Part shown: positions 8,968 through 37,914 of the stretch, one piece after another
Layout: every line of letters begins with the position of its first letter
Position numbering within the stretch: position 1 is the stretch's first letter
NCBI RefSeq assembly: GCF_026210795.1
Contig: NC_089445.1
Location: 558,001 to 622,000, forward strand
Length of the DNA stretch: 64,000 nucleotides
Direction of reading: 5' to 3'
Source of the DNA: Rhizophagus irregularis
Lineage: Eukaryota > Glomeromycota > Glomeromycetes > Glomerales > Glomeraceae
Notes under the pieces: model-generated
What the model was told of the DNA's origin: nothing
Databases searched by the model: none
The model's input: the letters and a program-made list of their open reading frames with translations, nothing else
Program-made: the position numbers and the translations under genes

Positions 8968-10721
8968 ATGGGGAATCATACAAGCAAAGCATCTAAAACA
9001 TTGTTTCATGACATTCTTTCACAATTTTCGGAAGAAGAAAGAGCTACTCTCTTGAAAGAATTTGAAGAATTCACTTCTGACAATGACTTGCATGACGAAC
9101 GAAAACATGGAAAACAACATGGAATCGGAGTAACAGATCTAAGTATTAAAGTAAACTGGCAGCTCATTTATTACCATTGTATTTTGCCTTCTTGAATATT
9201 GCTCAATATAATCCTTCTTTGTTGAATAGAAACAACTTCCTACCGTATTAGGAGAATATTTAAAAGATGGATTTACGCAGTATTTTCAAATACAATCAGC
9301 TTCAATTGAAAATAATCTTTCAGCGGAAAAAATAGAAAAGTTAACCTTACAATCTTCACCTTCTTTACTTATAACACAACTTGGGTTCGTTTCCTCAATT
9401 CATAATCTAACTAAAACAACACCTTCAGATCAATCTCAAGCAGTTTTTATCGTAAGTCGTTTATTTCAAGGATCATTAAAAGCCTTTATTCAAGAACTCG
9501 TAAGAGCCTCATTAGTTTATTGGTTTGAGGGTGCCTATATTCCTCAAACTGGTCAAACAAAAAATAGAGGTAAAGGAGGTGAAAAAGATATTTTTCTAAA
9601 TTCGGATAATACTGGCTTAGTTGATTATTTAATTTTATTTCCAAAATTAAAACATGATGAACCTGAAGAGGATTCACTTTTTAATTTAATTAAAGAAGCA
9701 GAAATTGAAGGGCATTTTAATCAAGGATCTTTTATGGATTGGTATATTAAAAATACACATTTTCAACATTTATTTAACATTTTGGTCACTCGTATATTCT
9801 TGCGTAGAAATTTACCTCAAAATTTTACAAATGCAATAAGAACTTTAAGATCCGCAAATTCAATTGCTCCAGAAATCCTTTCTACATATAAAGCTTTACC
9901 AAATTTTTCACGACTTTTAGCCCCTTCGGATTATTATATCTTAAATAGTCATCTGCCACCTGATTGTCGTATTACTACACATAAGTTATTATTTTCCTCA
10001 ACAAGAGATGGTGATAGTTGGAGCACATTTATTAATTATATATTATATCAGGGTTCAACTTTAATTGTAGTAAAGGATAAGGATGGTAATATATTTGGTG
10101 GATTTGCTTACGAAGATTGGGAACTTAAGCCAAATTGGTATGGAAATGAAAAGAATTTCTTATTTTCTATTAGACCTAAATTAAGAATATTTCCTTCTAC
10201 TGGCTATAATGATCATTACCAATATTTAAATTATGGAACAAAAACTTTGCCTAATGGTATTAAGTTCAATTCTGAAAATTATTGCTTTTATTTGATTGCG
10301 AAATAATACTAATTAATAATAAATACTATTCGAATTAGGTTTGGGAATGGGAGGACAATTTGATTTCTGTGGTTTATGGATTAATTCAGATATTATTAAT
10401 GGTAATTCAATGGCAACACCATTGTCATCAACTTATAGTAGTCCACAATTATCAAAGAAACAAGAATTTAAGGTGGATGAAATTGAAGGTATGTGGTAAA
10501 TTGGCAATAATATTTTTTGCAATTTATTAATTTAATTTTTTCTTTTAGTTTGGCTTGTCAAATTGACAGATAAAGATCCTGATGAAATACCAAAAGGGCC
10601 TAAATGTTCTGCATTAGATAAAAATCCAGCAGAATTAGAATTGTTAGAAATGGCTACAAATAAAAAAATGTATTCAAAGGAAGTTAGAGAGCCTAATTTA
10701 TTAATTGACGAAGAAGAATAA
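8968..10721 (+). CDS. TLDc-domain protein, MEAK7/Rtc5-like, probably N-myristoylated
   Basis: Four exons with consistent phases: 8968-9150, 9230-10256, 10339-10488 and 10549-10721, giving 510 residues. The N-terminus MGNHTSK fits the N-myristoylation pattern (Gly2, Ser6), as in human MEAK7 (TLDC1) and yeast Rtc5. The TLDc domain spans about residues 310-460: LLFSSTRDGDSW, FGGFAYEDWELKPNWYG, FLFSIRPKLRIFPSTGYNDH and the glycine-rich GLGMGGQFDFCGLW. A MEAK7-like tail follows (YSSPQLS...VDEIEVWLVK). Known relatives act at the lysosome or vacuole: MEAK7 in an mTOR-related pathway, Rtc5 in V-ATPase disassembly. Placement at vacuolar membranes is inferred from them. The order (acidic helical N-terminus, central helical region, TLDc) matches the family, and all junctions are GT-AG. 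Confidence 0.92.
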
Positions 10722-11847
10722 AAATTTGCAATATTATTTATAAATATTTTTATATCTACTGTATTATATTAACTGTAAACTTAAAAATATTATTATAATT
10801 TATCTAATTAATTAAATGAATTAGTAATCTGGTATATTAGCAATAAATTTAAAAATTAGAATAAAGGATTTTTAAAAATGTAAAGTAAAATTAATTAATA
10901 AAATTATTTATAAAAACTAGTAATTTATTATGTATTTTTCCTAAAGTTTTTAGGAATTTTACATAATTCCTAAAAATCATCCTTTTTCAAATTAAATAAC
11001 ATGTTAAATATTGGAAGAAAATGTTCTAAGTAAAATGCTAACCAATCAGATACCTACCTAATTGGTAACTTTTTTTTATCTGATTTATTCAATAATTAGA
11101 AATTGCTTGTATTTTAATTTTCAATTAAGTATCAATAAAATTAATATCTAATTAATAATTATCATTTAGTTTAAATTTACTAATTGTTCTGTATTTGATT
11201 AATTGGTATTTAAGTTTAACTATTTTTTAACTATAATAATATTGGCTGATTAAAATATGACATATAGGGTTGCAGACATATCTTTTGCTAAAAGTAGTTA
11301 CCTTATGATATACATCATATCAAGATACAATATATGCTGTAATACAAGAAAAAATTTTTTTTCATATTAAATCTACTTATAATAATCAATTACTACAATG
11401 ATTGTCACATTTAATTTTAGCTAAAAGTACAATTTGACCAGAATTAAAATTAAAATTACTACCATAGCAAAATATTTGAAAAGTAGTATTTCCTTACTAT
11501 ATTGATATATTGATATATAAGGTAACTACCTTAAGATATGTCTGCAATTTTAATGACATATACTATATTAAGTATAATGGTTTTAATTTCAAATTATCTT
11601 CTTTTAGATGAATATTTTGAAGTTAAAATTAGTTATCAAAATTTTTTTTTTAATTTGTTAATTTTAATACAAGGAAAAAAATTTCAACATTAGATTTTTC
11701 TTCAATTTTTATGTTCCAGTATAGGAAAAAACAATTTTAAAGTTTTTTCCTAATTTGCAAATTTTGGAACTTTAGTATATATAAAAAAAAAAAAAATTTT
11801 TTTTATTATCTAAAGATTTTTTATTTAGTATTAAGAATTCTGATATA
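10722..11847. other. AT-rich interval with one MITE
   Basis: This is the 3' flank of the TLDc gene. It holds no gene or RNA gene that I can support. The only organised feature is the inverted-repeat element at 11267-11552; the rest is A/T-rich with homopolymer runs at 11640-11810. Confidence 0.5.
11267..11552. mobile_element. Non-autonomous inverted-repeat element with 10-bp target duplication
   Basis: The direct repeat ATGACATATA flanks the element at 11257-11266 and 11553-11562. Inside, the ends are inverted: TTGCAGACATATCTT then GTAGTTACC on the left, and their complement at 11521-11547 on the right. A 286-bp body without coding capacity and a 10-bp duplication fit a Mutator-like (MULE-type) MITE. 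The superfamily assignment is inferred from duplication length only. Confidence 0.75.
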
Positions 11848-12029
11848 CAGTCAACTCCCTCTATAGTCACTCCCGTTATAGTCACATTCTACTATATAGT
11901 CACACCAGTTGAATGTTCAAAATATTTTATTATTAAAATCTATCCTATATAGTCACAATCTATCTATAGTCACTATCACACCTATCCTCAAAAATCTTAT
12001 ATTAAAAAGAACCGTTTATAATCACAGTT

Positions 12030-12143
12030 ATATAAAGAATATATTAAATAACTTGGCATCTAATAATCGTACAAAGATGTATCATATCTTGTTAGAATCA
12101 TCTCACTGAGACGAATCGAATGGTGGTAGTTTTATCCTTTTCC
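12030..12143. repeat. Left part of tandem-repeat unit U1, split by LINE-A
   Basis: The core GAGACGAATCGAATGGTGGT lies at about 12109-12128. The unit continues on the other side of LINE-A from 19999 (CGATTACTGGCTGACGAG). Rejoined across the 17-bp target duplication, it lines up with the units at 20110-20350 and with the copy at the end of the window. Confidence 0.7.
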
Positions 12144-12395
12144 TGTGCAAACAGTCTTATGACTTTATCTTTTATTTATACTTTAAATTTCGAAAAATAA
12201 TCGAACAATATTACAAAAATAAGAAAATAAACTAATAAAAAATAAAAGAGTAGCTTCACGACTCATACAAGTAAAGAAATCTAAACTAAAATAAAATTAA
12301 AGCAAAGAAAAACTGAACTATTACAGAATCGCATACCCCAACTTTACCCGAAGGCCAGTGTGAGTCAACTATCCAACGTCCAAAAATCCAATCCG

Positions 12396-15300
12396 TTACC
12401 AGAAAGAGACCCTAAGAGGTTGAACTGTTAAGCGGCGCAGAAAATCCAAGTGTGAGATCCATGATCCACCCCGAATTATAGAAGAGGATATCCAAGAAAT
12501 CCAGGTATCCTGAGAAACTGACGCCAAAGAAGAGTTGTGATGTTGTGGAGTGTTATTAGGGAAAGAATTTGTAGATGGGCCACGTAATTTGGAAGCAGCC
12601 GAGATACCCTGCGACTCTTCCCAAGCATGGAAAAGAACGTTCCGACACAGCCAAATTTCACCATATAATTCGACTTGGAAGTCATTAAGAAGGGGAGAAA
12701 TAATCTTGTATATAACAGAGAGAGGAAAGTATTGGTTCAAAAATGCCGTTAAATGCGCAGGCAATAATCCTCGAGTAAGCCAAAGACAAGATGAAGAGGG
12801 AGCTTCATAGTTCCAGCAATCCAAAGCAAAGAAATTGGTACAAAAGGAATTATCCAAAGATTTCAAGGATAGGAAGGAAGATAAACAAGAATCTCTAAAT
12901 TTAATGACTTCAGACCGGTGCGTTAAACAAGGATTCAATTCCGGTAAAATATAAGGGCAAGTCCAAAGATGATTCAAATCTTCAGGAGCAGAATTACACG
13001 CGACAAAGCCAGTCAGAGAATATAAGTAAGGTTTACGTTGTTGAAGAGTAGTTAAGGTAGGCAACATATCCAAAAGAAGTTTAATGCGGAAGATCCAAAA
13101 TTCAGGACGACCATTCCTATGTGAAGCAAAACCTTTAATTTGCGAAAGGCAAAAATATATACCAGCCCAATCAAAAAGTGAAGGAGCACCAAGAGCAGTA
13201 AAACGTGCTAGTGAACAGAAAGATAAAAGAGCACGAGCATCTGCAATAGAGCGGAGAAAATGTCGAATATTCGCATCAATAGGCAAGGAGTTAAAAGTCA
13301 ACAAGCCTGGAGCATAACAAAATGTTGAAAGTAGAGTAGTGGGTTGTAAAGACGAATGAGCATCTTTTGCCAAAGAATCCGCTTGTATATTGTAGATATC
13401 ATCGCCATGAGCAGGGACTTTAATCAATTCGACATTAAGATTACGATCCATGATAAGTTGTCGAATAGAAAGCCAAAGAAGATGATTAGGTTGGAAAAGC
13501 CAACTTCGGTGAGAAAGGAGCATTAACAAACCGTGTCCACAGTGAAATTAACTGACTACAATCAGTATGAATAGAGATTGATGAATCACGGGAAAGGGCG
13601 TTCAATCCTAAAAGTACAGCAGAAATTTCGGAACGCAAAGCTGAAGGAAAGTAAGAAGGGAGATGCATGGAAGAACATTCCAGAACAAGTCCATCATCAT
13701 CAAGAGCAATCCAAGCAGAAGTCATGGAAGAAGGCGAAGAATCATTGGCAGGATGGAACGAACCATCTGTGTACAAAGATTGCACCGAAAGTGGTAAAAT
13801 AGTGTCTTCAATTCTATCGATTCTATCCATAAAGAGAGGAGAAAGAGCGGGAGAAGCGTTGGAAAAATGAACAAGAGCCAAGGAAGTCGCATAACTCCAT
13901 GAAGTAGATAGAGTAATGGGAAGATAAGCCGCGAAAACTTTGGCATTTCTGGTAGGGTAGCCCACAGTTTCTGATAGGGTAACATTGAAAAAACACTTTT
14001 CGCTGTTGCGGCGCTGTTTAATGGCAGATTTCTTGGATAAGGCAGGAATGTTAACAGCACAACCAGGGACCAAGGGTTATAGGATCGTTCATCAGCCACA
14101 GTAGAAACAGGAAGCCAATGAGACATAATAGCCGAGTTTTGTTTCTTATAAGTGATACACACACGACCAACAGATAAAGTTTGAGTAGCAGAGTCAAAAT
14201 TAATAGCCCATTGAGGATAAAATTGATAATCTTTAACAGTATGATCTAATAAACAAATAGAAGCTAAAGTAAAAGAAGAATTAATAAAATATGAAGATAA
14301 AAGTAAAGAAGAAGAAGAAAAGGAAGAAAGAAATTTATTTTTAATAAATGTAAACCAATTAGGAATCCGTCCTTTACGACCAACGATGCCAAGGTACCGA
14401 AGGTCAGGCCAATTCATAAGATAACGTCCACAAGGCGAAACCAATTGAGCAAGCACAAATATATTCAGATTTTTCCAAAGTTTCCAACTTGTCTGAAAAA
14501 TGGAATGTGGTAGAATAGAACGGAGTGGTAAAGCAGGCTGTAGATCACGCCTCAGAGGCCGGAAGGAGAAAGACCACGTGATGTTCAAACGCGAAGAAAA
14601 CAAAAGCGAATTAAACAAGGTATGCGTTCGTAAAGAAACAATTTGCGACCATGGTTCTAGGTTAATAGTAGTCGGGCAACTTTCGGCACCCAAATATCCT
14701 TGAAGATAGGAAATAGCATAAAGGGCAAAATCTTTAAAATCAGGATGAGTGAAAATTTTTTGCCAAGATGCGATATGGGAAGAAAGGAATCGGTAAAAAG
14801 CATTCTGAAGCGAAAATGGAAGTTTGAGAAATAATAAGGCCAACGGGGTAGTCGCAGCAAGACCAGCTTTTCTTTGAAGTACGAAAACATAGGGCTTCAC
14901 TATTGATTGAATAGTACTTTCAGAGAAAAGGGTAGTTTGAAGACGAAATTCCAATCGCGGAAGAAGGACAGCATTATAGAGATAGGCCACATGTTGTGCT
15001 AATAATTTCTTCAGTCCCAAGAGAGCAGCCATATCTTTAACCATGGAGCGCGCTTGTTTCAGAACAAAATCAGAAGAGGCGGACAAAGAAAACCAAACTC
15101 CTAAAAAACGAAATGAAGTTTTAAGAGGTAAAGAAGAAAGGGAAAGAGATATATCGGAAATTAAAAGGGAAGGTGAAAGTTCAAAAGTAATCTCCGAAGA
15201 AGGCGAAGAGGATGAAAGAAGAACATATTTTGCTGAATTGGCTTGAACATTATTTAAAGTATAAAATTCAGCAGTAATAGAAAGACGGTCTTCTATTCCA

Positions 15301-17780
15301 GATTTTGAGGAAGCAATAAGTGTAGAATCATCCATAAACGTTAAATGTGAAATTGGTAAAGAATGTTGTTCAAATTCAAGTGGGGAGTAATTTAAAAGAG
15401 CTGAAGATTTTAAAATAAAAGGATCTCGTGCTTCTTGATTCAAAACAGTGAGTAAGGGATCCAAATAAATAACCCAAAGAAGAGGGGAAATGATTTCTCC
15501 TTGATCGATACCAACACGTACTCTATAAGCAGCTGTATCGCCATGACAAGTAATTATCTTATTATTGCGTCGTGTAAAAAGATTTAAAATAAAACGCACT
15601 AAAAGTGCAGGAATATGTAACCTATCTAAAGCTAATTTAAGCATATTTAAATCCATAGAATCAAAAGCTTTAGAGATATCTTGAGAAACGATCCATAGTT
15701 CCTGATCATCAGTAGAGTCATGTTTATGTTGATGGATAATCGCATCCAGCATTTTGATAGGGACATCAGTAGAACCACCAGGTAAGCCAGCAAAGTTACC
15801 ACCTTGGAGAATTTTATTATCAGCAAGAATGTTGGAGAGACGATTCGTGACGACCTTAACTACACATTTTCGAACTGTTTCCAGAAGAGTAATAGGTCGA
15901 GTGTTCTTAAGTTGAGCATCAAATTCATGAGGTTTAGGAATAGGATAAACCACAGCTTCACGCCAGTCAGCAGGAATATCACCACGAGAAAGGCAAGTAT
16001 TGGCAAGTAAGAGAGAAAAATCCAAGGCTTCACCGGACAGATGTTTAATCATCTCATAAGAAATTTTTGAAGGGCTGGAAGCTTTGTTATTTGGCATGGA
16101 GGAAATCACAGCAGACCATTCTTGTAGGGAAATAGGCGCCAAAACAGGATCATATAATGAAGCAGACACATTTGCAAGAGGAGTGTAAGCTTGTTGCCAT
16201 CGGGCGGGAAATGAAGTGATGGAAGAATAGTGGACCAACGGAGGAGAAACAATTGATTGAAAATGAGAGACAGCCGCATGTTTAATATCCGAAGGATCCG
16301 TTAATAAAGTAGGAGTTGAGTCCAAAACGACTAAAACACGGTCAAGAACAATTGAACGTCTTTCTACTGATAAGGCAGAATCGATAAAGGTGCTGAGCGA
16401 GTTCGAAAAGTGTTCATCACGTAGTGCAGTATAATATTCCACTGAGTCCGTAAGGTGTTGGGCGAATTTAGTAGATAAAAAGGCAGAAACTAAATTCTTC
16501 TGTGATCGTAAAAACGATTTAAATACAGATGCAGGGGTTGTAGAATAGATAGGAACTGAGTAATCAGGAAGTAAGGATGCAAGATTTTCAAGATGGGAGG
16601 GCAAAGCGGCAGTCATTTGCGCAATTTGAGTAGGCCGATTAGAACGACGAGTAGTAAGGCGATATAAAAATCGATCTAAAAACTTGTTAATAGCAATAAG
16701 TTTAGTTAATTCAGGAGAGTACGAATGTCGGTGTGTATTGGAGACTTTTTGAAAGGGTAAGGTTTCAATTGCAGCACTAATTATGGCAGCTTTCAATGCA
16801 TGCCACATACGATCAAGAGAAAGAGAGGAGAAATCAAAATTGGGGTGATATTGTCTATCTAAATATACTCCAAGAGAATCATCTACTTCAGTGGTAAAAT
16901 TATTCCATTGTTCAACTGAAGTAGAAGCGTAAGAGAAAATAGTACGCATTTCCTTTTTTTGTTTAAGACGAGATTTAGCCAAGATAGCCAGGCAAGAACT
17001 GAAGTCAAAAACAGTTGTGAGAACTTTGTGATCTGTAAAAGGACGATCAAGGAGATTGCAAGTAATCACTTGCGAAAAAAGACCAGGAGCAGGGAAAACC
17101 AGGTGAAGACCAGATATAATCCAGTCTCGAAGATCCATTATCATGAAAGAAGGTGGGATCAGGACCATTTGTAGAGGAGTGAGCTTGATGATCAGTAAAA
17201 AACCGAGAAGAAAGCAAGCGAAGAAGCTTAAAATGATTAGATGAATAATTAGAATGAGCGATTGCATCAACATTGAAGTCGCCAAGAATAACTACAAAAT
17301 AATTATTAGCTCGAGCATAATCGAGCCAAGAAAGAAGTTTGGCAATAAGATCATTGCAAATAGATTGATGAACAGAACCAGAGGGGGATAATATATGGAA
17401 ATAATAGAAATTTTTGTTTGATGAAAGAACAAGTCTAATTTAAGAAGTCGACCGTTCCAAGGATCAATCGTTTGAACATGTTTATGAAGGGGATTACGTA
17501 ACAAAATACCAACACCATCATGAGGGCGAGAAGAAGAAGATGAACAAGCCCAATAGGACTTAAAGTGATGTTGGGAGTGTTCATTTTTAAAAATAAATTT
17601 AGCATTTGAAGGGGAAAGACGCGTATCATTAATAGATAAAGCACCAAAAGAAGAGTGGAGAAAAAAATTAAGCAAATGTTGTTGTCGAACTGGGGAACAT
17701 AAACCATTAACATTTAATTGACCAAATTTAATGAGGGGAGAGGGGTGAGGGGAAAAATTATGTTTATTGTTGTCCATCAT
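12396..17780 (-). pseudogene. LINE-A ORF2: endonuclease, reverse transcriptase, RNase H (frameshifted)
   Basis: The start is ATG at 17780 (MMDNNKHNF). The endonuclease begins FGQLNVNGLCSP. A frameshift near 17400, after SIISIYYPP, shifts its second half, where GDFN and TDHKVL motifs are still readable. The longest frame (17285-13722) then carries reverse transcriptase: PIPKPHEFDAQLKNTRPITL, motif A SQDISKAFDSMD, motif B GIDQGEIISPLLWVIYLDPL and motif C FMDD. Another shift near 13800-14050 leads to RNase H (YTDGSF, SALRSEI, HTDCSQ), and one more near 13500 to KVPAHGDD and the C-terminus. The terminal knuckle has lost its first cysteine (FVACNSAP, where LINE-B has CPQCNSSP). RT catalytic residues are intact, so decay is by frameshift. 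Confidence 0.9.
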
Positions 17781-17830
17781 TATTACACACTGATAAATCG
17801 GTAATAAAGAAGGGGGAAAAAAGAGAACAA

Positions 17831-19845
17831 TTATTGATTAGCTTGGCCTTGTTGCCGAGCTAAGATGAGGTTGTTTTGTTGGATTCCTTCTTTAATCGAG
17901 CCAGCCAAAGAGGCAACAGTATCGGAAAGAGAGGAGAGACGCTGTTCCATATCAATAGGGGAGGAAGGAGCGACGTTGGAAGGTGGAATGGGAGCAAAAT
18001 GAGGAATCGGGGAAAAACCACTTGTTGATTGCAAAGGGGAGAATTAACATCAACGAGGATATTATTATCAGTTCGATTCACTGTATCATCCCATCCTTGC
18101 ATAGAGGAAGGGATGTAGGAAGGAGGTTTAGTGACAAAAGGTCCAGGAATAGGAGTACGAGCAGCCATAGCAGATTCCAAATTAGTGATGCGGCTGTTCA
18201 TGGTAGCAAATTGTGTGGTAAGAAGGGCTAATTCTTCAACTACTTTTTCAAGAGCAGCACCAATAGATTTCCAATCAGTAAGCACAGTAGGAGGAGCAGG
18301 ATATGTAACATTCATGCCATCAGCATAGTGATCAAGTTCATTTGCATCAGGAATACGACGACGTTGATTATTATTGTTGTTGTTAAGATTGTCGCGATTC
18401 CATGGTCGATGTTGAGAACGAGAACGAGATTGTTGTCGGTTATTAGGTCTGGATTTAGAACGATGGCGAGAAGCATTAGTACGGCTTTGTCCATCATTAT
18501 TGTTATCAGGGCGGGCAAAACGGTTATGTCGTTTAGCAGGATGAGAAGGAGGTAGATGCTTATTATATAAAGCACGTAATTTATCATTAGACTGCCAAGG
18601 GCGGGAAGGGCGATTAGGTCTAGATGAAGAACCACATCGATCAGGGTTACAATTAGGGCGACCACATCGATGACAAAGAGAAGTGACTTCATCCGGAGAA
18701 TGCCAGGTAAGGCCAATTTTCTTGAGGGCAGCATGAAATAGATTTAGCATTTTCCATAGCCGTTTCGGAGGCAAAATGGCAATAGGCGTAAGGCTTGGGA
18801 TTGTAAGAATTCATAGAGAAGGGAACATTGATAGATTTAGCGGAAATTTCTTCGGCAATTTCGAGCAAGATCGACCGCTATAGTACCACGCGGGGACCGG
18901 CAAGTAAAGCAACATAAGCACGTCTTTGCTGCGTTCAGGTGAGAAAGTAGCGGGGCAAATACGCAAACAATGTCCTCCACAAAGGACGCCCCAGATAGAG
19001 TCGAGGTTCTGTAAAGCACCAGTAGATTCAAAGGTAATGTATGCAGTACGATAAAGTTTAGATAAACGGGTATGGCAACGAGTAATATTGCCGTAACGAG
19101 AAAAGGTACCACGCAGAAGCGTCGGATAGAAAAAGGGGGATATCGGTAACCACCAGGGTACGCGCGTGTTCATCAGCCTTAATAGCCTGGGGATCATATG
19201 CATGGAAATGCAAGCCAAACAAAGATTCCATAGGGGAAGCTGTGGCGTGTCAAGATCATTCTTTTTCGGAAGTGGACGATGATCCTCTTCAAATCGTTGG
19301 ATCCACTACACGTGGCACGACTACCATAAGAGGAGAACAAGGAAAGTTGTCGATCAACCGCGCCGCACGCGTCGCGGTTCGAAGCGAAGTGATTCCAAAA
19401 GCCATCGACGTCAGTTAGGAGCGGCCGAGGCGTAGAAAAGTGTAGGTTGAGATTGTACTGCAGCTTGGGACGCGTCCGGAGAGGCAGCACGTTCAGGGAA
19501 AGAGACTGCGGGAGTAATTTCAGGGCTTTTGCCTTTATCGTTGTTGTTAGCAGGGGCGTGTTGCGAAGCATCGAGAGAGGAGGCATCGGGTTGAGAAGGT
19601 ATCTCAGGCGGAAGTTGTCTCAACAGGGCCAGGAGGCGTGAGAGGTTTATCGACATCATCGGCGAGTCTTCAGCACTGACTCTGGTACGTTTATTAGTAG
19701 AGGTGGTCGAAGGTGGAGTGTTCGAAGGGCCAGACATAGAGGAACCTTGACCAGAAACGTTGCCAGTTGGAGAGCTAGAGGCAGGACGTTTAGACGTAGT
19801 ATCTTTGTTAGACTGGTTATTTTTCTTTTTGTTATCTTTACCCAT
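17831..19845 (-). pseudogene. LINE-A ORF1: RNA-binding protein with zinc knuckle (frameshifted)
   Basis: It begins with a lysine/asparagine-rich leader (MGKDNKKKNNQSNK), then a Ser/Pro-rich linker. An RRM-like segment follows in a shifted frame (LTDVDGFWNHFASNRDACGA onward), then SLCHRCGRPNCNPDRCG (a cysteine knuckle), an Arg/Ser/Asn-rich stretch and a short coiled-coil-like tail ending at 17831. At least three frameshifts occur, near 19450, 19200-18800 and 18035. LINE ORF1 proteins bind the element RNA and form the ribonucleoprotein. The boundaries of each frame segment are approximate. Confidence 0.82.
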
Positions 19846-19998
19846 TTGTAAAGTGTCGTAGTAGTTATCTAAAATAAAGAAATTATAAAGAAAAAGTAAT
19901 AAAAAACTCTGAAAAAATTTTTTATTTTTTCGTAAATATTGTCAAGTGAGCAGAACGGGAGAGAGTTAGTTTTATCCTTTTTAGTTTTATCCTTTTCC

Positions 19999-20360
19999 GA
20001 TTACTGGCTGACGAGTTATTCAACAAAATGTTAAACATCGGCATTATAATATTTCTTGATTTACGTTTACTGCGCCATTTAACATTTTTCTAGATTTCTC
20101 GGTACCTAGTGATTGTAAAAAGACGATTTATAGCTCGTTGGAATCGCCTCATCGAGACGAATCGAATGGTAGTAAGATTGTCTTTCTAGGACCAATTTTG
20201 GCGGAGTTATTACACAAAAACCATTAATATTTTTTTAATTTCAGAAATTAATCTAGTGATTGGATTTCGACGTATTTTATACCATTGGAACCGTCTCATC
20301 AAAACAAATCAAATGGCGGTAAGATCATCTCTCTATGATTAATATTGGCGAAGTTATGAT
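19999..20360. repeat. Tandem units U1 (rest), U2 and U3 inside the DNA transposon
   Basis: Three diverged units of about 130-170 bp follow each other. Each contains a version of CTAGTGATTG, then GGAATCG/GAACCG, then GACGAATCGAATGGTAGTAA, then TTGGCGGAGTTATT or GACGAGTTATT. U1 is split by LINE-A, U2 spans about 20100-20245 and U3 about 20255-20360. A further copy in reverse orientation closes the window (63876-64000), so the unit is a dispersed repeat. Confidence 0.72.
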
Positions 20361-20477
20361 ACAATAAAGTTTTAAGTATAATTCTGGCTAAAATTATGTT
20401 AATTTTTGGCCGGAATTATGATATACAAATATAAGAAATTTTTTATATAGTCACATCTTTTTATAATCACCAAATAT

Positions 20478-22681
20478 TCACGTGGTCTTTACCATTCCGA
20501 CCTCCGAGAAAAGATCTGCGTCCGGTGATTCCACTCCGGTCGATTTTACCAAAAGATTTGTTTATTTCTATGAAAAATGGTCGGAAAAACTTTTGTACTC
20601 GTTTCCTTGCACAATTGATTACTCCATGTGGCTCTCGGCTTATCTCATGGAAAGACTTACGCTTTCTTAAACGAGTTTCGAACAAAGGATCTGTGCCTGC
20701 TTGGTTTACTTATTTATTTAATTTAGTTGTTATTTCTAATTCTTCTTCCTTTTTTCTTTTACCGCAATTTAGAATACCTAATTTCTATACTGTTGCTTCT
20801 ATCTGTTTTATAGATATTAGTCAAAATTATTTGTTTAATCCACAATGGGCTATTTTTTTTAATCGCGATACTAACTCTTTCCTTGTTGGCCGTGTGATCA
20901 TTACCTATCCTGCTCTGCGAAATGAAGCTCTTATTTCACATTGGATTGCGTTATCTGTCGATGACTTATTATCAGAATTCACTGTATGCCAAGGTTGTGC
21001 CTCTGCTATTCCACGATCCTCTACTTCCAAAACATTACTTAAACGATGTTCCTCTGAAAAGTGCTTCCCTTATGTGCCTTTATCAAGTCTTATCCGTTAC
21101 CCTACGAAGCCTCGTACTTATATACATGCGGATACTCATTCGGTTTTACTTTCCGCTTCGTTAGGCTATGCCAAATCTCTTTTACTATTTTATCTTTTTG
21201 CTCCAGTTCGGTTACCTCCTATGCTTAACCAAGTGTCTAGGATTTCTGATATCCAACTTCCTTCTTCGGTGTCTACACTGTATATTGATGGATCCTTCCT
21301 TCCTCCTTCTAGTCATCCGACACCTTCGATGGCTTATGCATGGACTGCTATCGATTCTGATGGTTTTATTCTTGAATCTCATTATAATACCATTCCTTCC
21401 CTTTTTCCCTCTGCATTGTGTTCCGAAATTTTTGCCTTATTGCATGGATTGGACTCCCTCCCTCGGTATTCCAAGATTACTGTCGCTACTGATTGTGCTC
21501 AATTAATTTCCTTATGGTCTACGTATGTGGATGTTCCGTTCATTCCTAAAATGCTTAAAGAATTCAACCACCTTCTATGGTCTTCAGCACGAGTTATTAT
21601 CTCACAAAAGAATCTGGAAGTTACTTTAATCAAGGTTCCTGCTCACGCTGACGATTCTTTGAATAATCATGTTGATGACTTAGCGAAAGCTGCTCATACA
21701 GACTTACGTCTTTCCTCTATTTCGCCTGCAATTTTGGCTCCTTGCATTTTACAATTTAATTCTTTACCTGTGGATATAAATATCCGGAAATTCCTTGGAG
21801 ATATTTTTGACGCCAAGAGTCTTTTGACTCTTGCTTTATTACCAAGATTCAATCTTAATTCTTCTATTTCAGATATTGATTGGGCTTGTACCAAATTTTG
21901 TTTTAATAATAAACAATTACAATCCTCCCATCGAAATGGCCGGTCTGAATTTTGTGCTTTCCGTATCAAGATTTTATTGGATATGCTTCTGACACTCACA
22001 ACTCTTCAAAGACGAAAGCCTCATATCTATTATCCGAGTTGGCTCTGTCCTCAATGCAACTCCTCTCCTGAGACTTTAGACCACTTATGGACTTGTTCTT
22101 ATATTTTACCTGAATTTAGTCTTTTTAATACTTTTAAAACACTTCTGCTGGACCTTAGTACCGTCTGTCTTGGAAAATTTCTCTCCGTGACTCCTTTAAA
22201 ATCTTTACCAGACTCCTTTGCTAAAGAATTTACGGCTATTGATTGTTGGGACTGTGACCCTCCTTCAAATTCTTGTCTGCGACTTGCACATGGACTTATA
22301 CCGATGTCTCTTACTAGTTTTCTTGGAACATATTTTTCATCATCCACTATTTGTTCTATTTTTGATACACCTTTACATGATTTTCATTTCGATCTCTATG
22401 TACAAATCTGGTTGTGCCGTTCCGTTTTCTTTCATCATTGGGAATCAGCTCAAGGCATTACCAATAAAGTGAAATCGTCCGCTATTGGACCTTCTCCTAC
22501 TTCTCATTCCTTCTCACAAATTTCTCCTGCAATTTCAACACCTTCCTTGGCGACAGCTTCCTTGGATTCCTGGGTTTCTTGGGTTTCCTCTTATATAATC
22601 CATGGGGGATCTTGGATTTCGCATTTGGATTTTTGGCGCCGCTTAACAGTTCAGCCTCTACTTAGGATTTCTTTTTGGTAA
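20478..22681 (+). pseudogene. LINE-B ORF2 C-terminal fragment with uninterrupted RNase H
   Basis: The frame is open from the truncation point (TWSLPFRPPRKDLRPV) to the stop at 22679-22681, so this part has no frameshift. It holds a CQGC...CSSEKC cysteine region, RNase H (YIDGSFLPP, CSEIFALLHGLD, ATDCAQLISLW, KVPAHADDSLNNHVDDLA) and a complete C-x2-C-x8-H-x4-C knuckle (CPQCNSSPETLDHLWTC). It lacks the endonuclease and reverse transcriptase, so it cannot mobilise itself, and no start codon context is present. The clean frame suggests it is the youngest of the LINE copies here. It is classed as a pseudogene because it is a truncated insertion. Confidence 0.88.
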
Positions 22682-22946
22682 CGGATTTGATCTTCGGATA
22701 TGCTGGATAGTTGACTCACACTGGCCTTTGGGTAAAGTTGGGGTATGCGTTTCTGTAATAGTTTAGTTTTTCTTTACTTAATTTTATTTTGTTTAGATTT
22801 CTTTACTTGTATGAATCGTGAAGCTAGTTCTTTTTATTTTTTATGTTTAATTTTCTATATTTTATTTGTAATATTGTTCGATTTGAGTTTTGTACTTTTC
22901 GTTTAAAAATTTATAATAAAATATAAAGTCATAAGACTGTTTGCTC
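20478..22946 (+). mobile_element. LINE-B, 5'-truncated LINE-A-type copy
   Basis: The 15-bp direct repeat ATAATCACCAAATAT flanks it at 20463-20477 and 22947-22961. The copy starts abruptly inside ORF2 at the position matching LINE-A 14578, a typical result of incomplete reverse transcription. The 3' end AAGTCATAAGACTGTTTGC is shared with LINE-A and LINE-C. It is close in sequence to the 3' half of LINE-C (28440-30906). Confidence 0.9.
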
Positions 22947-23072
22947 ATAATCACCAAATATGGAGGATTATCACAGCTCTTTCCTGAAAATTTTGAAAAA
23001 CATATTGTTCAAAATTTACAAGTTTAAAATATTCTTTCCTCGTTGCTTTCCTCTTATTAAACTTGCTTTACT

Positions 23073-25200
23073 ATGACAACACCCAAAGCTCCTTCGGTTA
23101 TTAACCCTGATATACCACCTCCGCCGCTTCCTGGACCTACTATTCCTCCTGGAAATCGCTCGTTATCTCCTGATAACTCTAGTGGCGCGTCTACCAAGCA
23201 TTTGCGTACTGTCTATGAAGACGCTATGGACATTGAAAAAACTTCTACTCCTGTCTCTGGTTTTAACCCTGGTCCTACTGTTCCAACCGGCCTTCCTGTC
23301 AATAAAGTTGCTGTAATTACGCAACCACCTGTTACTAATACACGCTCTCTAGACTTTTCTATCCACGCACATCCCATTCCTACTCTTACCACTGTTGCCC
23401 CACAGGACGACAAAGGTAAATCTATTGCCTTCGCTATTCTGGAACGTCAACCATTCCCTGATGGTAGTGCTACCACTATTAAATCCGCACCGTCTCATTA
23501 TCATGCTGCAGCCTATCTACGTGACGCGCCTGACGCGTTCAAAGCTAAATTCACCACCAATCGTTCTATGTGTGACGAAGTGGATTGTTCACTCTCTCGA
23601 TATCCTTCCTATGGCGCCCGCGCATGTTGCAATGGATCAGGCGATAACAAAAAGATCCTTGTCTTCTTCAATAATTAGGATGATCTTACCGATTGTATCA
23701 ACTTCCCACGTGCAGATCTTCTCGATTTGGCTTTCACCTATTATTCCCCTGCAGATGCCAAACTCAGTGACGAAGCGAAGTCTTTGTTTGTCACCGACAT
23801 CCCACTTTTCCTAAACGAGACGCAAATCCATCAGGCATTTTCCAGATATGTACTCGCGATCAAAGTTGCAAACTTACCCCAAGAAACATTACTATAATGG
23901 ACATATCCAGTTTTCCTCCGCAGATGCAATTACCCAATTCAATGATATCTGGGCGATTATCTGCCTAGGTAATTCTTTACATGTTTGCCTGGCATCCTTC
24001 TCAAAAGTCCAACGTGATAGCCAAAGAGAAATATGTCGCCATTCCGCGGCATCCCCAAAATATTAATACGACCTTTAGAAATTGCCACCAAGCTTAACGC
24101 TAAAGCTCTTAACGTCCCCCTTTCTGTCAATTCTTACAAGCCCAAACCTTATGTATATTTAAATTTCTCCTTGTTTGATACTCTTGAGGCCACAAAAGAT
24201 TTATCTGTGGCTTTCTGTGGCAAAGGTTTAACATGACACCTTCCCAATGAAGCTCACACTTTATGTCATGTTTGCGGACGTTTGGGTTGCTCCCCTTCTG
24301 TATGTAACCCTCGTCCCACACACAAAGTGGATGATCGCCTTAACAAACTATATTCACGCTTTAATGCTGGTCCTCGTCGTGGTCATCAGAATTTGCGCCA
24401 ATCACGTGATAAATCCAATTCCTGGTCAAGATCACGATCTACCTCTAGATCTCGCAATAATTCCTCCTCATCCAAACCTAACAATAACTATAATAATATT
24501 AACACTTCCCATCCTAATGTTCCTAACCGTAACAATCAGACCAATAACAATAACACCAACTCTAGGAACAATGTAACTTCTTCCGGTTCTACTCAATCTC
24601 CACATATGCTTCATCCTAATAGTTCTACATCTACTTTCCCGAGTAACAACCCTACTTACACGCTTCCTCAACACATCATTGATGATTTACGGACGCAGAT
24701 TAGCAAAATTGCTAATACCCTTAGTACTCTCGATGAAACTGTCTCCTGGATGCAGGATACTATTGCGCATTATGAGTATAGGCTAACAGAGCTTGAATCA
24801 ATGATGGGTTATGATAACCCTAACAACGCTAATTCATATTCGCCACCTGATGATACTGAACAATATCCCCAAGATGTTGGATGGGATAATGAACCATCCC
24901 ATAATACGAGTTCACGATCCAATCTTCTTCCCTATACTTCTTCTTCTCTTATGGACACTTCCCCGGATGCTTCCTTTTCAGCTTTGGATCCTAACTCCGT
25001 CTTGTCCAATAGACATGTCCCCTTGCCATCCTCCCGACCCAATACTAGTGTCCCCGATGCTACTGCTTCCCGCCTGCAATTGGAAATTTCTAATATTACT
25101 AACGTCTATAAAAATCTTTCTCCGCTCAACTTCATTTCAATAATGGAAAAATTGGACTCCTTCTCTCCCCCAAACCCTCCCCTTCTAATGATTGAACACC
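23073..25200 (+). pseudogene. LINE-C ORF1 (stop and frameshifts)
   Basis: The start is ATG at 23073 (MTTPKAPSVINPDIPPPP), a Pro-rich leader unlike the Lys-rich leader of LINE-A. A TAG at 23676-23678 interrupts the frame; the homologous sequence continues directly after it (DDLTDCINFPRADLLD, LFVTDIPLFLNETQ). Later frames carry GHIQFSSADAITQFNDIWAI and LNVPLSVNSYKPKPYVYLNF, equivalent to the RRM-like core of LINE-D ORF1, then an Arg/Ser-rich region. The ORF1 stop seen in LINE-A is missing: the last segment reads on in frame into ORF2 as far as 25568. Confidence 0.8.
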
Positions 25201-25239
25201 AATTTATATTAAGTGCATCACAGAGACCACCGAATAGCG

Positions 25240-28200
25240 CGATATTTAATAATAATATTCCTAATAATCATTCCTTTTCTCCTTTCCCTCTTATTAATTT
25301 TGGACAAATCAATGTTAATGGTTTATGCTCTCCTGTTCGACGATTACATTTGTTAAATTATTTCCTTCATTCCTCTTTTGGCGTTTTATCTTTAAATGAT
25401 ACTCATCTTACCCCTTCTAGTGCTAAATTTATTTATCAAAATGAACACTCCCAATATAATTTTAAGTCCTATTGGACTCCTTTCCCTTCTAATTCACGAC
25501 CTCATGATGGTGTTGGTCTTTTACTTCGCCATCCTTTACATAAACATGTTCAGAAGATTGATCCTTGAAATGGTCGTCTTTTAAAATTAGATCTTTTTTT
25601 TCATCAAACAAAAATTTCTATTATCTCTGTTTATATTCCTCCTTATCATTCTATTCACTATAAAGAACGTGATGCTATTTTTACACAACTTAATTTGTGG
25701 CTTGATAAAGCCCGTTCTAATAATTATCACGTAATCATCCTTGGTGACTTTAATGCAGATGAAATTTCTCATTCACATCTTCCTCAATATCATTTTGAAA
25801 ATTTTGCATCACTTTTTTCTCGGCTATTTTACGCATCATCAATCCCATATTTCTTTCGATTTCAGGTCCCAGTCCTACCTTTTATCATCAAAATGGTTCT
25901 TCAAGACTTGATTATATTTATTTACCCCTGGATTTCCTGCTCCCAGTCTTTCTCTTATGTTGAAACTTGTCCTAAGTTGAATGATAATCAATTTACCGAC
26001 CACTGTGTACTTATAACAGCATTTGACTTTAGCTCTTGTTTCGCTACTCTAGCTAAAGCTAGATTAAAACAAAAAAGTGAACAACGCACTATTTTTCTTT
26101 ACAAAAATTTAAAGGATGATATTTGGGATCGATTTTCCAATGAAGTCAATTTACGTCTTGAACTCTACTTAGCCACAAATCATCCTTCCATATCTTCACT
26201 CTCAGCTCTTTCTTTAGATAAACTTTGGCACGCTCTTAAACGCTCTATACTTGGTGGTGCCATAGACTCTTTACCGTTTCAACATGTATCCAATACCTAT
26301 CATCATAAATATCCTCCTGAGCTTACAATGCTTATTGCTATCAACAAATTCTTGAATAGATTATTGTTTAAATTGACCACGTCTCGACCTAGTCATCCCG
26401 CTCAAATTTCACAAATGCTTAATTCTTTACCTACACAGTTGACTCTTTTGAAATCTCTTTTAACTGATTATACTATACCTATTTATAGTACAACACCACT
26501 TTCCGCTTTTGTCAAATTTTTGCGTTCGCAAAAAGCTTTGGTCTCTGCTTATCTTTCCACACAATTTCATCAACATCGTATGGATTCCATTGAATATTAT
26601 ACTGCTCTTAGAGATGAACATTTCTTTACATCACCGGGATCTTTTATCTCTTCAGCTTTGTCAGTGGAACACGTTTCCATCGTTCTTGATAGAGTTTTGG
26701 TTGTAATTGACTCTAAACCTATTATTTACTTACCGATCCTTCAGATATCAAACAAGCTGCTATTAAACATTTCCAATCGGTTGTTACTCCTCCTTTGGTC
26801 CAGCATTCTTCTACTGCTTCATTTCCTCCTCGCTGGCAAAGAGCATATGCTCCTATCTCTGACATTGACTCATCCTTATATAACTCGGTCATGTCTCCTA
26901 TACTGGAGTTGCCAAATTGAGAACACCATCCAGTCTAGCGCCTAATAACAAAGCCTCTGGTCCTTCCAAGATCTCTTATGAGATGCTCAAACATTTAACT
27001 GGAGAAGCCTTTAATTTATCCCTTATATTAGCTAATGCTTGACTTACTCATGAAAATATTCCTGCTGATTGGCGTGAAGCGCTTGTTTATCCTATTCCGA
27101 AGCCTCATGAATTTGATGCACAATTAAAGAATACGCGACTTATTACTTTATTAGAAACTATACGAAAATGTTATTACAACTCGACTTTCAAAAATCCTAG
27201 CTGATAACCACAAGTACTTCAAGGTGGTAATTTTGCTGACTACCAGGCGGTTCTACAGACATTCCTATTAAGACTGCTTCGATGCTATTATTCATTAACG
27301 CCGCTTTGACAAACCGACGACCAAGAATTATGGGATTGCTTCCCAAGATATTTCTAAAGCCTTTGATTCGATTGATTTAAGTACGCTAAATTGGCTTTAA
27401 TTCGTTTGCATATCCCGTCCTTGTTGATTAAATTTATCATCAATCTTTTACATTACGTAACAACAAAATTATTACCCATTATTATTGATACTTCTAGATA
27501 TAGAGCTAGAATTGGTATTGACTCAGGTGAAATTATTTCTCCGTTATTATGGGTAATTTATTTAGATCCGCTTACAACACTTAATCGCAGAAGTTTGCGA
27601 TCCCTTTATTTTGAAATCCTCTGCGTTAATGGATTATTCTCCTTCGATGTATTACGAACAATATAATCTTCCTGTTTCTCATATTACATTCACGCATTTA
27701 TCTCTACTTTGATTGCTTCATCTAAACGAGGAATTAAAGATCGCCTCTCCATTACTGCTGAATTCTATACTTTGAATAATACTCAAGCAAATTCTGCAAA
27801 ATACATTCTTCTCTTCTTCTGAACAATTTCTTTCTCAAACCGTAGCGTTTGGATCTTTTTCCTTCTCCTTTAATTTCAACTAAGATTTTTACTTTAAAGC
27901 CATTGTCTACTTCTTTCCGTTTTAGGTGTTTGGTTTTGTCTTTCAGCTTCTTCTCGCTTTGTGTATAATCAAGCTATTTCTATGGTCAAAGACATGGCTG
28001 CTTTACTTAACCCTAAAAGCTTTGGCACAACATGTACTTTACCTTTATAATGTTATCCCATCTCCGGGCGCTTGAATTTCGCCTTCAAACCACATTATTT
28101 GCTGAATCGACCATTAATCGTATGGTTTTCCCAATGCTTTCCCTTATTCGACAGAAGGCTGTTTTTGCTTTAGTCACTCCTTTTGCTGCGCTTTTTACAT

Positions 28201-30642
28201 TGTTGCCGTTCTCAATCCAACAAGCATTTGGCCGATTTTTATCATCTCATGCGGCTTCCGCGGGCAACGAATTTTTTTCTCACCCATTACATGTCTCTTT
28301 GCCAATTATATAATTACTTATCTCCAAGGCTTTCTGGATTGTGATGCCTGTCCTTCTATTATTGACTTGGCACCATGGTCTCATTCCTTTTCTCTTCGAA
28401 CACATTCTTTATTTAATTCTTTATTGTTCTCTTCTCGATTGAATATCACGTGGTCATTATTGTTCTGACCTCTGAGGAAAGATCTACATCCGGCGATTCC
28501 ACTCCAGTCTATTTTATCTAAAGAATTATTTACTTCCATGAAAAATGTTCGAAAAAACTTCTGTACTCGTTTCTCTGCCCAATTGGTTATTCTGCGCGTT
28601 CTCGAATTTTCATTGAAAGATTTACGCTTTCTTAAACGAGTGCTTCGAACAAAGGATCTGTGCCTGCTTGGTTCATTTATTTATTTAATTTAGTTGTTAT
28701 TTCTAATTCTTCTTCTTTTTTTGTTTTACCGCAATTTAGAATACCTAATTCCCATACTGTAGCTTCTATTTCTTTTATTATATATTAGTTAAAATTATTT
28801 GTTTAATTCTGTCATTATTTTCAATCGTAATACTAACTCTTTCCTTGTTGGCCGTGTAATCATTACTTATCCTGCTCCGCGAAATGAAGCTCTTATTTCA
28901 CATTGGATTGCGTCATCTGTCGATGACTTATTGTCTGAATTTACTGCCACTGCTGCTACGCCCTGCTATTCCGCGATCCTCTACCTCTAAGACATTGATT
29001 AAATCACGTCCCTCTGAAGCGTGTTTTTCTTAGCGTGCCTTTATCAAATCTTATCCGTTACCCTACGAAGCTTCGTACTTATATACATGCGGACACTCCT
29101 TCGGTTTTACTTTCCACCTCGTTAGGCTATGCCAAATCTTTATTATTATTTCATCTTTTTGCCCCAGTTCGTCCACTTCTTATGAATAATCAAGTGGCTA
29201 GGATTTCTGATATTCAACTTCTTCCTTCGGTGTCTACACTCTATATTGATGGCTCTTTCCTTCCTCTCTCTAGTCATTCAACATCTTCGATGACTTATGC
29301 ATGGACTGCTATCGATTCTGATGGCTTTATTCTTGAATCTTCTTATAATATCATTCCTTCTCTTTTTCCTTTTGCATTGCGTTCAGAAATTTTTGCTTTA
29401 TTGCATGGACTGGACTCCCTCTTTCGAAATTCTACAATTACAGTCGCGACTGATTGTGCTCAATTAATTTCCTTATGGTCTTTGTACGTGGATGCTCCCT
29501 TTATTTCTAAATTGCTTAAAGAATCCAACCACCTTTTGTGGTCTTCAGTACGAGCTATTATTTCACAAAAGAATCTGGAAGTCACTTTAATCAAGGTTCC
29601 TGCTCACGCTGATGACTTTTTGAATAATCACGTAGATGATTTAGCAAAAGCTGCCCATACGGACTTGCATCTTCCCTTTCAGTCGCCTGAACTTCTGGCT
29701 CCTTGCATTTTACAATTTAATTCTTTATCTGTGAATATGAATATTCAGAAATTTATTAGAGAAATTTTTGATGCCAAGAATCTTTTAACTCTTGCTATAT
29801 TACCAAGATTTAATCCTAATTCCTCTCTTTCTGACATCGATTGGGCTTGTACCAAATTTTGTTTTAATAATAATCAATTAAATTTTTCCCATCGGAATGA
29901 CCGCTCTGAATTTTGTGCTTTCCGTATCAAGATCCTATTAGATATGCTTCCGACACTCACAACTCTTTAGCGATGAAAGCCTTATCTCTATGATCTGAGT
30001 TGGCTTTGTCTTCAGTGCAACTCCTCTCCTGAGACGTTAGACCACTTATGGACTTGTCCTTATATTTTACCTGAATTTAGTCCTTTTAATACTTTCAAAA
30101 CACTTCTACTGGACATTCGAACTGATTGTCTTGATAAACTCCTTTCTGCGACTCCTTTAACATCTTTACCAGATTCTTTTGTTGCTGAATTTACGGCTAT
30201 TGACTGTTGGGAATGTGACTCTCCTTCAAATTCTTGTCTGCGACTCGCACATGGACTTATACCGATGTCTCTTACAGGTTTTCTTAGAACCTATTTTTCA
30301 CCATCCATTATCTGGTCTATCTTAGATAAGCCTTTGCACAACTTTCATTTTGACCTTTATATTCAAATCTGGTTGTGCCGTTCAGTTTTCTTTCATAATT
30401 GGGAATCAGCTCAAGGCATTACTAATAAACTGAAATCGTCCGCCTTTGGACCCTTTCCTATTTCTTATTCTTCCTCTGAACTTTCTCCTGCTCTTTCGAC
30501 ACCTTCTCTGGCGACAGTTTCCTTGGATTCCTGGATTTCTTGGATATCCTCTTATGTAATCCGTGGTGGATCTTGGATTTCACACTTGGATTTTTGGCGC
30601 CACTTAACAGTTCAGCCTCTACTTAGGATTTCTTTTGGGTAA
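25240..30642 (+). pseudogene. LINE-C ORF2: endonuclease, reverse transcriptase, RNase H (multiply broken)
   Basis: Endonuclease motifs are readable (FGQINVNGLCSP, ILGDFNADE, TDHCVLITAFD) but a TGA at 25566-25568 replaces the Trp codon found in LINE-A. Reverse transcriptase remnants include PIPKPHEFDAQLKNTR, ISKAFDSID and GIDSGEIISPLLWVIYLDPL. The segment that should encode FMDD (about 27690-27715) is rearranged, so the catalytic aspartates are lost. RNase H lies at 29035-29970 (YIDGSFLPL, ATDCAQLISLW, KVPAHADDFLNNHVDDLA), then an in-frame TAG, and the C-terminus ends at 30642. Confidence 0.85.
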
Positions 30643-30960
30643 CGAATTGGATCTTAAGGCATGCTGGATAATTGACTCACACTGGCCTTCAGGTAAAGTT
30701 GGGGTATGCGTATTCTGTAATAGTTTAGTTTTTCTTTACTTAATTTTATTTTGTTTAGATTTCTTTACTTGTATGAATCGTGAAGCTAGTTTTTTTTATT
30801 TTTTATGTTTAATTTGTATTCTGGTTTTGTAATATTGTTCAATTTGATTACTTTCTTTTCGTTTAAAATTTAATAATAAAAGATAAAGTCATAAGACTGT
30901 TTGCTCATAATCACCAAATATGGACTGTCCCAAATGTGTGACTATAAAGAGAGTTGACCG

Positions 30961-31962
30961 TAAAAAAAAAATTAATCTTTTAATTTTTTTATTATTTATT
31001 CTGATTTGAAAAATAATTGTAGTTTTTTTATTTTATCAATTTATTCCATCTATTAATATTAAAAAAATGATTATAATACCATTTAAACCATTTTAATAAA
31101 AGAATTTTAATGAACTATTAATCATTTTTCTACAATTATTGGATGGCAAGTTATTGCACAAAATGGATTCTAATTAATTAGAAAAAATTAAAAAAAGAAA
31201 TTAAACTGAATTATTCAAAGTTTTAGGTATTATAGATGTAATTTAAATTGATCAAATAGATGATAAATTTGATGAATAACAGATTATCAGATTATAATCT
31301 TTTTTTTTATAAAAAAAAAATTTATTTTAAAATCTTTCTTCATAATGAAATATGCTTTAAATCTAATCAATCTAGATATCTAGTCATCTATCTGAATTTT
31401 GATCAGATTCAAATTGATTTATTTATATTATTAGATTAACTAGATGATTTATTGAATATCTGATCAATAACTAGTATTCCATACAAATTAAATTTTTCTT
31501 CTGAAATTCAATTTAATTTGGATTCAATTTAAATTCAATTTAACTTTTAAAATAATTATCTTAGAATTTAGTGATCCAATTTTAATATTTTTTTTTTTAA
31601 TCAATAGCTTTCATTATTCTAATTAAAATAAAAAAAAATCATCAAAATTGGACTGCTAGATCAAAAGTTATTTGTAAAATACATTTTTGCCTTTCAAAAG
31701 TAATTAAAGTCACATTATATTACAAATCAATTTATACGAAATATTATTAGATCAATCTGATAATCTATTAGTAATACCAGTTTAACCAGATATCTGATTA
31801 ATTTGATGAATAAAAAAATTTTTTTTTTTTACTTTTAACAATAACTTTATTTAATAAAAAATATTACAAATATAATTATACTATAAATCTATATTAATAT
31901 CAATATACTATTCTATTAACTTTATACATCTTTTTTTTTATAGTAACACAATATAAACTTAA
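30961..31962. other. AT-rich interval with one MITE copy
   Basis: No gene is visible. The interval contains the MITE at 31472-31749 and several ATCTGATTAGAT-like short repeats (31260-31460 and 31730-31810). Confidence 0.5.
31472..31749 (+). mobile_element. MITE family M1, copy 1
   Basis: The ends TAGTATTCCATACAAATTAA and, reversed, TAATATTTCGTATAAATTG are inverted. The body carries ATTGGACTGCTAGATCAAAA and AAAATACATTTTTGCC. The same body occurs in reverse at 44267-44544, which fixes the element limits. It is about 278 bp with no coding capacity. Confidence 0.72.
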
Positions 31963-34900: not shown

Positions 34901-34992
34901 ATTATATATCTGACCTTCTACCTTCATGTGATTTGATTCTGATTGGCTAAAAAAATATATATAATATATAATATTATATTAAAAGATATATA

Positions 34993-35170
34993 TATATATT
35001 ATAATACAATTAATTTGCTATCTAATAATTTAATTTGCATAAACTTTTTTTTTGTTTTGTAACCCTATTTATGCTTTATAAACCAAAAAAAAATTCATAA
35101 AATTGAACTGCTAAATGGTAAGATAATTGTTTTAATAAATAAATTACTATATATTATATATATTATAATA
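34993..35170. repeat. AT-rich repeat unit, copy 1
   Basis: The unit runs AATTTGCATAAAC, a T tract, TTTTGTAA, TTTATGCTTTATAAACC, an A tract, then TTGAACTGCTAAATGGTAAG. Two further copies follow in tandem at 43965-44266, beyond the LINE-D-bearing element, so that element probably sits within an ancestral tandem array. Confidence 0.6.
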
Positions 35171-35306
35171 TACACTGGTAAAAAAATGGTCTATCCTACA
35201 CATATCCTACACATATCTTACATATATCGGATACTTAAAATGTAGAAAATCATACACAAATAATACACATATCATACACATATCGAGTACTTATATATAT
35301 AGTATA

Positions 35307-35600
35307 CACTGGTCAAAAACCAATATATCAGGTAGCAGATATGTATCAGATATGTACCCGATATGTGTAGTATTAATGCAGAAAATCGGGTACCCGATAT
35401 GTGTAAGATATATGTAAATATATATATCATATACATATCGGGTACTGATATGTATATGATATATATATAATATGTAGACGATATATATATTTACACATAT
35501 CTTACATATATCGGGTACCCGATTTTCTGCATTAATACTACACATATCGGGTACATATCTGATACATATCTGCTACCCGATATATTGGTTTTCGACTAGT
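35307..35600. repeat. Near-perfect fold-back palindrome
   Basis: Bases from about 35316 to 35430 and from about 35470 to 35593 are near-exact reverse complements, with ACCAATATATCAGGTAGCAG on the left and its complement on the right. The arms are rich in GGGTACCCGATATGTGTA-like units. The outer ends (CACTGGTCAAAAACC) resemble those of the surrounding CACTGGT element, so this may be a second copy nested or duplicated inside it. Confidence 0.78.
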
Positions 35601-35736
35601 AGTAGTAACTCTCTCCTGAATTTTTCAAAAAACGAAAATTTCGGACGAAAAATATTTTTTTATTATTTTTAAAAAATAATACAAGCTACTAATAAAATTT
35701 TATATTTTATATATTCCCAACTCAAAGCCCTCTACT

Positions 35737-37864: not shown

Positions 37865-37914
37865 TTTCTTCCTTCAAATTTTAACTTCCCGACTGTTTAT
37901 ATCATTGTGTTTTA

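Follow-up and report, generated by a model that had tools for sequence, protein, structure and literature searches.

The locus at 11848-30960 of the window (the whole 64-kb stretch of DNA that was analysed) raises the question of whether it is a small DNA transposon enlarged by retrotransposons and, if so, in which order its parts arrived. The initial annotation described it as a 0.8-kb DNA transposon with inverted ends and TA flanks, interrupted by three LINEs that each carry their own target duplication.

Ends and size of the DNA element

The terminal inverted repeats of the element (Table 1) agree at 20 of 23 positions. Among 300,000 pairs of 23-mers drawn at random from the window, with pairs less than 50 bases apart dropped, the best agreement was 18 and it was reached once. 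If as many as 3 mismatches are allowed, the end pattern has two occurrences in the window, which are the two ends of the element (referred to as CAGTCAAC-ended or CRGTCRACTCYCTNTATAGTCAC-ended), and 0 are expected from shuffles. When the LINEs are taken out together with one copy of each duplication, 814 bp are left. Both the coordinates and the size proposed at first were right. All seven TATAGTCAC/GTGACTATA motifs of the 64-kb window fall within these 814 bp, with 0.35 expected in the whole window under a first-order model.

The longest stop-free frame of the 814-bp element is 69 aa, and no transposase-sized frame is found in it. Since no stop-free frame exceeds this length, the element would have relied on a transposase supplied from elsewhere for its movement. 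No uninterrupted full copy was seen: exact matches to the end pattern numbered 0 in collections of viral and of bacterial/archaeal contigs, and those to the internal-unit pattern 0 in the viral contigs, which is uninformative because these collections are not expected to contain this organism. The window has no match to Rfam models at gathering scores, and scanning it for tRNAs was likewise negative.

Table 1. Features of the nested locus and of the neighbouring LINE-D (positions in the window).
Feature	Position	Strand	Remarks
Left TA flank	11846-11847		target duplication of DNA element
Left terminal inverted repeat	11848-11870	+	20/23 bases equal to right one
DNA element, left piece, 279 bp	11848-12126	+	five TATAGTCAC motifs and start of U1
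LINE-A target duplication, left copy, 17 bp	12127-12143		TAGTTTTATCCTTTTCC, 17/17
LINE-A, near full length	12144-19981	-	RT (Pfam RVT_1, 63.9 bits); frames interrupted
Extra partial copy of LINE-A target	19966-19981		at LINE-A 5' junction
LINE-A target duplication, right copy, 17 bp	19982-19998		TAGTTTTATCCTTTTCC, 17/17
DNA element, middle piece, 481 bp	19982-20462	+	rest of U1, U2, U3, GGCC-type palindrome, one TATAGTCAC
LINE-B target duplication, left copy, 15 bp	20463-20477		15/15
LINE-B, 5'-truncated	20478-22946	+	RNase H 29.2 bits; remaining frame open
Shared target copy	22947-22964		right duplication of LINE-B (15 bp) and left one of LINE-C (18 bp; 20 bp from 22945)
LINE-C, near full length	22965-30906	+	frames broken; RNase H 31.3 bits; endonuclease-like 25.9 bits, below cut-off
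LINE-C target duplication, right copy	30907-30924		18/18; 20/20 counted from 30905
DNA element, right piece, 54 bp	30907-30960	+	one GTGACTATA
Right terminal inverted repeat	30938-30960	-	reverse complement against left end, 20/23
Right TA flank	30961-30962		target duplication of DNA element
LINE-D target duplication, 14 bp	35587-35600 / 43802-43815		1 mismatch
LINE-D	35601-43801	+	RRM in ORF1 39.1 bits; RNase H 45.3 bits; endonuclease and RT matches below cut-off
LINE-A 3' end	12144-12172	-	
LINE-B 3' end	22920-22946		
LINE-C 3' end	30880-30906		
LINE-D 3' end	43770-43801		

Target duplications and domains of the LINEs

LINE-A sits in the internal unit U1 of the DNA element, and LINE-B and LINE-C sit near its right end. 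Their target duplications of 17, 15 and 18-20 bp exceed the longest duplication found by chance, which was 12 bp among 3755 random position pairs (from 4000 drawn, pairs closer than 2 kb were discarded, and the borders could shift by 8 bases); each of the three LINEs does have a duplication of its own, as had been claimed. The duplications of variable length are accompanied by other features of LINEs, namely the absence of LTRs and 5' truncation. No terminal direct repeats of at least 60 bp bounding a single LINE were found in the self-comparison of the window.

The RT of LINE-A is of LINE type. Its protein has eight distinct PDB matches up to E 0.01: four to LINE-1 ORF2p, three to R2 and one to an entry named 'RNA-directed DNA polymerase'. 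LINE-A and LINE-C share 68% DNA identity over 3300 columns, the RT of LINE-A included, and it is by this identity and not by a family search that the RT stretch of LINE-C is recognised. LINE-B is truncated ahead of the RT core and is 86% identical in DNA to LINE-C over 2500 columns. It lies in a 748-aa open frame (20435-22681) that starts just upstream of the LINE. The RNase H scores of LINE-B and LINE-C lie above the cut-off of 25.8 bits, while the Exo_endo_phos_2 matches of LINE-C (25.9 bits) and LINE-D (24.0 bits) are both under the curated cut-off of 27.4. Pfam reported no endonuclease in the frames of LINE-A. At a threshold of 0.001, four of the eight LINE frames (nine frames were submitted) had no Pfam match, the C-terminal frame of LINE-A among them; the upstream frames of LINE-A had no match at 0.001 either and are called putative ORF1 from their position and by eye. 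Only in LINE-D does ORF1 contain a domain that can be recognised, an RRM.

All four LINEs end with TTTGC followed by two or three bases and have no poly(A) tail. A short possible hairpin precedes these 3' ends (GTCATAAGAC; GGCTACTATGCC in LINE-D); the predicted folds of three sequences are weak and not significant (z of -1.03, -1.90 and -0.76). At the 5' junctions of the near full-length LINEs A, C and D the end of the target copy is repeated (19966-19981, 22965-22972 and 35601-35606, respectively). This repeat is long in LINE-A and comprises about 3 bases in LINE-C and LINE-D, where it may be due to chance. In contig collections not expected to contain this organism, the 3'-end pattern gave 0 matches (viral contigs), and neither the seven stretches matched by the LINE-A RT protein (viral contigs) nor the four matched by the LINE-B protein (bacterial/archaeal contigs) were confirmed.

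Continuity of the DNA element

Unit U1 is split by LINE-A. Once rejoined, it can be aligned with U2 and U3 both left and right of the joint, the right-hand part with gaps. At 63.9 kb, on the minus strand, lies a diverged unit that is identical to the rejoined U1 in 57 of 74 columns and runs without a gap across the LINE-A site; the score of this alignment is 80, the maximum among 300 shuffles being 35. Counted by hand, identical columns in the same alignment number 29 of 35 to the left of the 17-bp LINE-A target, 8 of 17 in the target itself and 20 of 22 to the right. Since the 63.9-kb unit matches U2 and U3 as well, and agrees so little within the LINE-A target, it is a paralogous unit rather than an empty allele of the site, and what it demonstrates is the uninterrupted layout of a unit. 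Next to this diverged copy (63878-63994) there is a small stretch of inverted repeat with GTGTCCGAAATTA ends (63727-63832).

The recurrence of an internal unit at 63.9 kb in another context means that the 814 bp may themselves be composite. In that case an independent repeat, made up of the internal units (12045-20420 or so, LINE-A excluded), would have inserted into a smaller CAGTCAAC-ended element. The copy at 63878-63994 indeed comprises, amid different sequence, the unit together with part of the neighbouring GGCC palindrome. Against this, no clear duplication bordering the block of units could be seen by eye, and related non-autonomous elements that share internal modules would produce the same picture. 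A composite origin is considered unlikely.

Two LINEs at one target

LINE-B and LINE-C have the same orientation and a common target within 2 bp, and the homology between them starts where the left duplication of LINE-B ends. They differ at 327 of 2456 aligned bases (13%). The 299 coding differences, found in 723 codons, are distributed as 85, 72 and 142 over codon positions 1, 2 and 3, and dN/dS is 0.295. The observed third-position share of 0.475 was reached in 0 of 2000 neutral simulations (mean 0.318, maximum 0.411), which used the observed substitution spectrum without sequence context and placed all changes on one branch and are therefore a simple null. LINE-C has four stops in the frame of LINE-B, compared with a simulation mean of 11.7; four or fewer were obtained in 14 of 2000 simulations. 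These four stops indicate that some of the differences arose after insertion. The excess of third-position changes makes the two copies look separately inserted, and LINE-B and LINE-C are most likely separate insertions which diverged in source lineages under selection.

The same arrangement could be produced from one insertion by tandem duplication, i.e. by unequal exchange between the duplications of the target, after which the left copy would have lost its 5' part and decay would have set in. Such an exchange would yield exactly the order target-LINE-target-LINE-target, and the two LINEs are co-oriented and their 3' junctions are the same down to the two extra bases and the 18-bp target. 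However, copies decaying as dead DNA would have their differences spread over the codon positions, which is not compatible with 142 of 299 at the third, a share that none of the simulations attained. The dN/dS value is that expected of lineages diverging under selection, and no differences are seen among the three copies of the target over the length they have in common, despite the 13% divergence of the LINEs. Tandem duplication is therefore regarded as very improbable.

Long repeats are often assembly breakpoints, and the sequence of the junction is identical in LINE-B and LINE-C; the junction, or even the whole nest, might thus be an artefact in which, for example, two haplotypes or loci were joined end to end. 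Such a misjoin is very improbable in view of the precise duplications that LINE-A and LINE-C each possess, of the matching inverted repeats and TA at the element ends and of the confinement of all seven end-type motifs to the non-LINE pieces. A single event of target-primed reverse transcription (TPRT) with a template jump between two LINE RNAs is rejected, because it would leave no target copy between LINE-B and LINE-C and such a copy is present.

Order of insertions and proposed mechanism

As read from the DNA, the DNA element was demonstrably there first and the LINEs came later, because every LINE is bracketed, within the element, by a target duplication of its own, because the pieces outside the LINEs fit together as one coherent element and because the 63.9-kb unit is uninterrupted at the LINE-A site. 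The initial annotation had proposed this order. It had also held that removal of the LINEs restores a continuous element, and this is borne out by the alignment of the units across the LINE-A joint (with the gaps to its right) and by the motifs gathered in the 814 bp.

The order of LINE-B and LINE-C cannot be read directly, as they share one target and either order leaves nearly the same sequence. TTTGC is separated from the duplication by ACA in LINE-A, by CT in LINE-D and by TC in both LINE-B and LINE-C. The common TC fits a LINE-C duplication that copied the LINE-B junction, so this one dinucleotide weakly suggests that LINE-B preceded LINE-C; tandem duplication accounts for it equally well.

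The following scheme is proposed for the whole locus, with a probability of about 0.9. A non-autonomous, TA-flanked inverted-repeat DNA transposon of ~814 bp, presumably mobilised by a transposase encoded elsewhere, would have inserted first. Three non-LTR retrotransposons would have inserted afterwards, probably by TPRT, in which, as described in passages of PMC2881922, a first nick is followed by cDNA synthesis starting at the 3' end, and the duplication results from a second, downstream nick. LINE-A would have entered U1 on the minus strand, and LINE-B and LINE-C one target near the right end on the plus strand, perhaps LINE-B before LINE-C, as two insertions sourced from separately evolving lineages of one LINE family. 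A template jump to the target strand, likewise described in passages of PMC2881922, would be in keeping with the extra partial target copy of LINE-A. The scheme is based on the inverted ends, the target duplications, the restored continuity, the 5' truncation of LINE-B and the codon-position signature, all of them read from the sequence. It makes the nest a clean case of a small DNA element grown ~23-fold by LINE insertion, from 814 bp to 19,113 bp.

Possible target preference

Under a uniform model, the chance that a second insertion falls within 2 bp of the first and on the same strand in 814 bp is ~0.003, or ~0.01 if three possible pairs of LINEs are allowed for, the pair having been chosen after it was seen. 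The low uniform chance of insertion at the same site makes a target preference of the LINE-B/LINE-C lineage likely, as far as two insertions in one copy can tell. The targets of LINE-A and LINE-D have no visible resemblance to that of LINE-B and LINE-C. A stronger form of this idea, in which the lineage is target-specific, with an endonuclease directed at the DNA transposon's subterminal ATAATCACC (TATARTCAC-like) motif, is speculative and improbable. If it were true, the DNA transposon would be a repeatable landing pad gathering LINEs at its end, comparable to Tx1L, in a genome that seems fungal by its base composition and gene style. The same-site pair makes it testable in the source genome whether these LINEs favour the end motif of the DNA transposon.

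Neighbouring features

A second nest (35165-43972) is situated ~4 kb away, where the fourth LINE, LINE-D, interrupts another inverted-repeat element. The host of LINE-D is a palindromic element with CACTGGT/CACTAGT ends, which itself lies inside an inverted-repeat element with CACTGGTAAAAA ends. Tandem-like units of ~130-145 bp are found on both sides (34989-35129, 43965-44092 and 44108-44251), so this second nest sits in yet another repeat. An open frame with a TLDc domain (9230-10306, 94.8 bits) is located ~1.5 kb to the left of the 11848-30960 nest.

Comparison with known systems

Nested transposons are commonplace. Taken by itself the present nest is ordinary; its only slightly unusual aspect is that one site was hit more than once. 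Among the titles and abstract openings covered in the literature search, no description of the nest or of a LINE specific for such an element was found.

TA flanks together with CAGT-type ends are the signature of Tc1/mariner. The DNA element is, by its ends, a candidate Tc1/mariner-like element: it resembles non-autonomous Tc1/mariner (pogo/Fot1-like) elements and MITEs in its TA target duplication, in its terminal inverted repeats (20/23) starting with CAGT/CGGT, in its length of less than 1 kb and in having no transposase-sized frame. It differs from them in its internal tandem units and its many subterminal TATAGTCAC motifs. According to excerpts of PMC11075540, TIR sequences that measure between 50 bp and 1 kb and lack a transposase are classed as MITEs, and in Rhizophagus irregularis Tc1-Mariner is listed, the genomes consist of about one half of repeats and LINE families are present. 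LINE R1 and Tc1 are named for R. irregularis in an excerpt of PMC8647823.

The LINEs of the nest resemble APE-type LINEs with RNase H (I-factor-like), with which they share RT and RNase H, target duplications and 5' truncation. In the I factor, as given in passages of PMC2881922, ORF2 is composed of APE, RT and RNH domains. In contrast to I-factor-like LINEs, the present copies have the TTTGC-type end in place of poly(A), and their endonuclease matches in Pfam stay below the curated cut-off.

The target of Tx1L of Xenopus is the Tx1D transposon, which makes Tx1L a precedent for a LINE targeting a site in another transposable element. Passages of PMC8869645 state that some LINEs target other transposable elements and cite work on the Tx1L endonuclease. 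The present locus differs from the Tx1L case in that a single copy with one site hit twice is known, in that LINE-A and the neighbouring LINE-D went into other sequences and in having RNase H.
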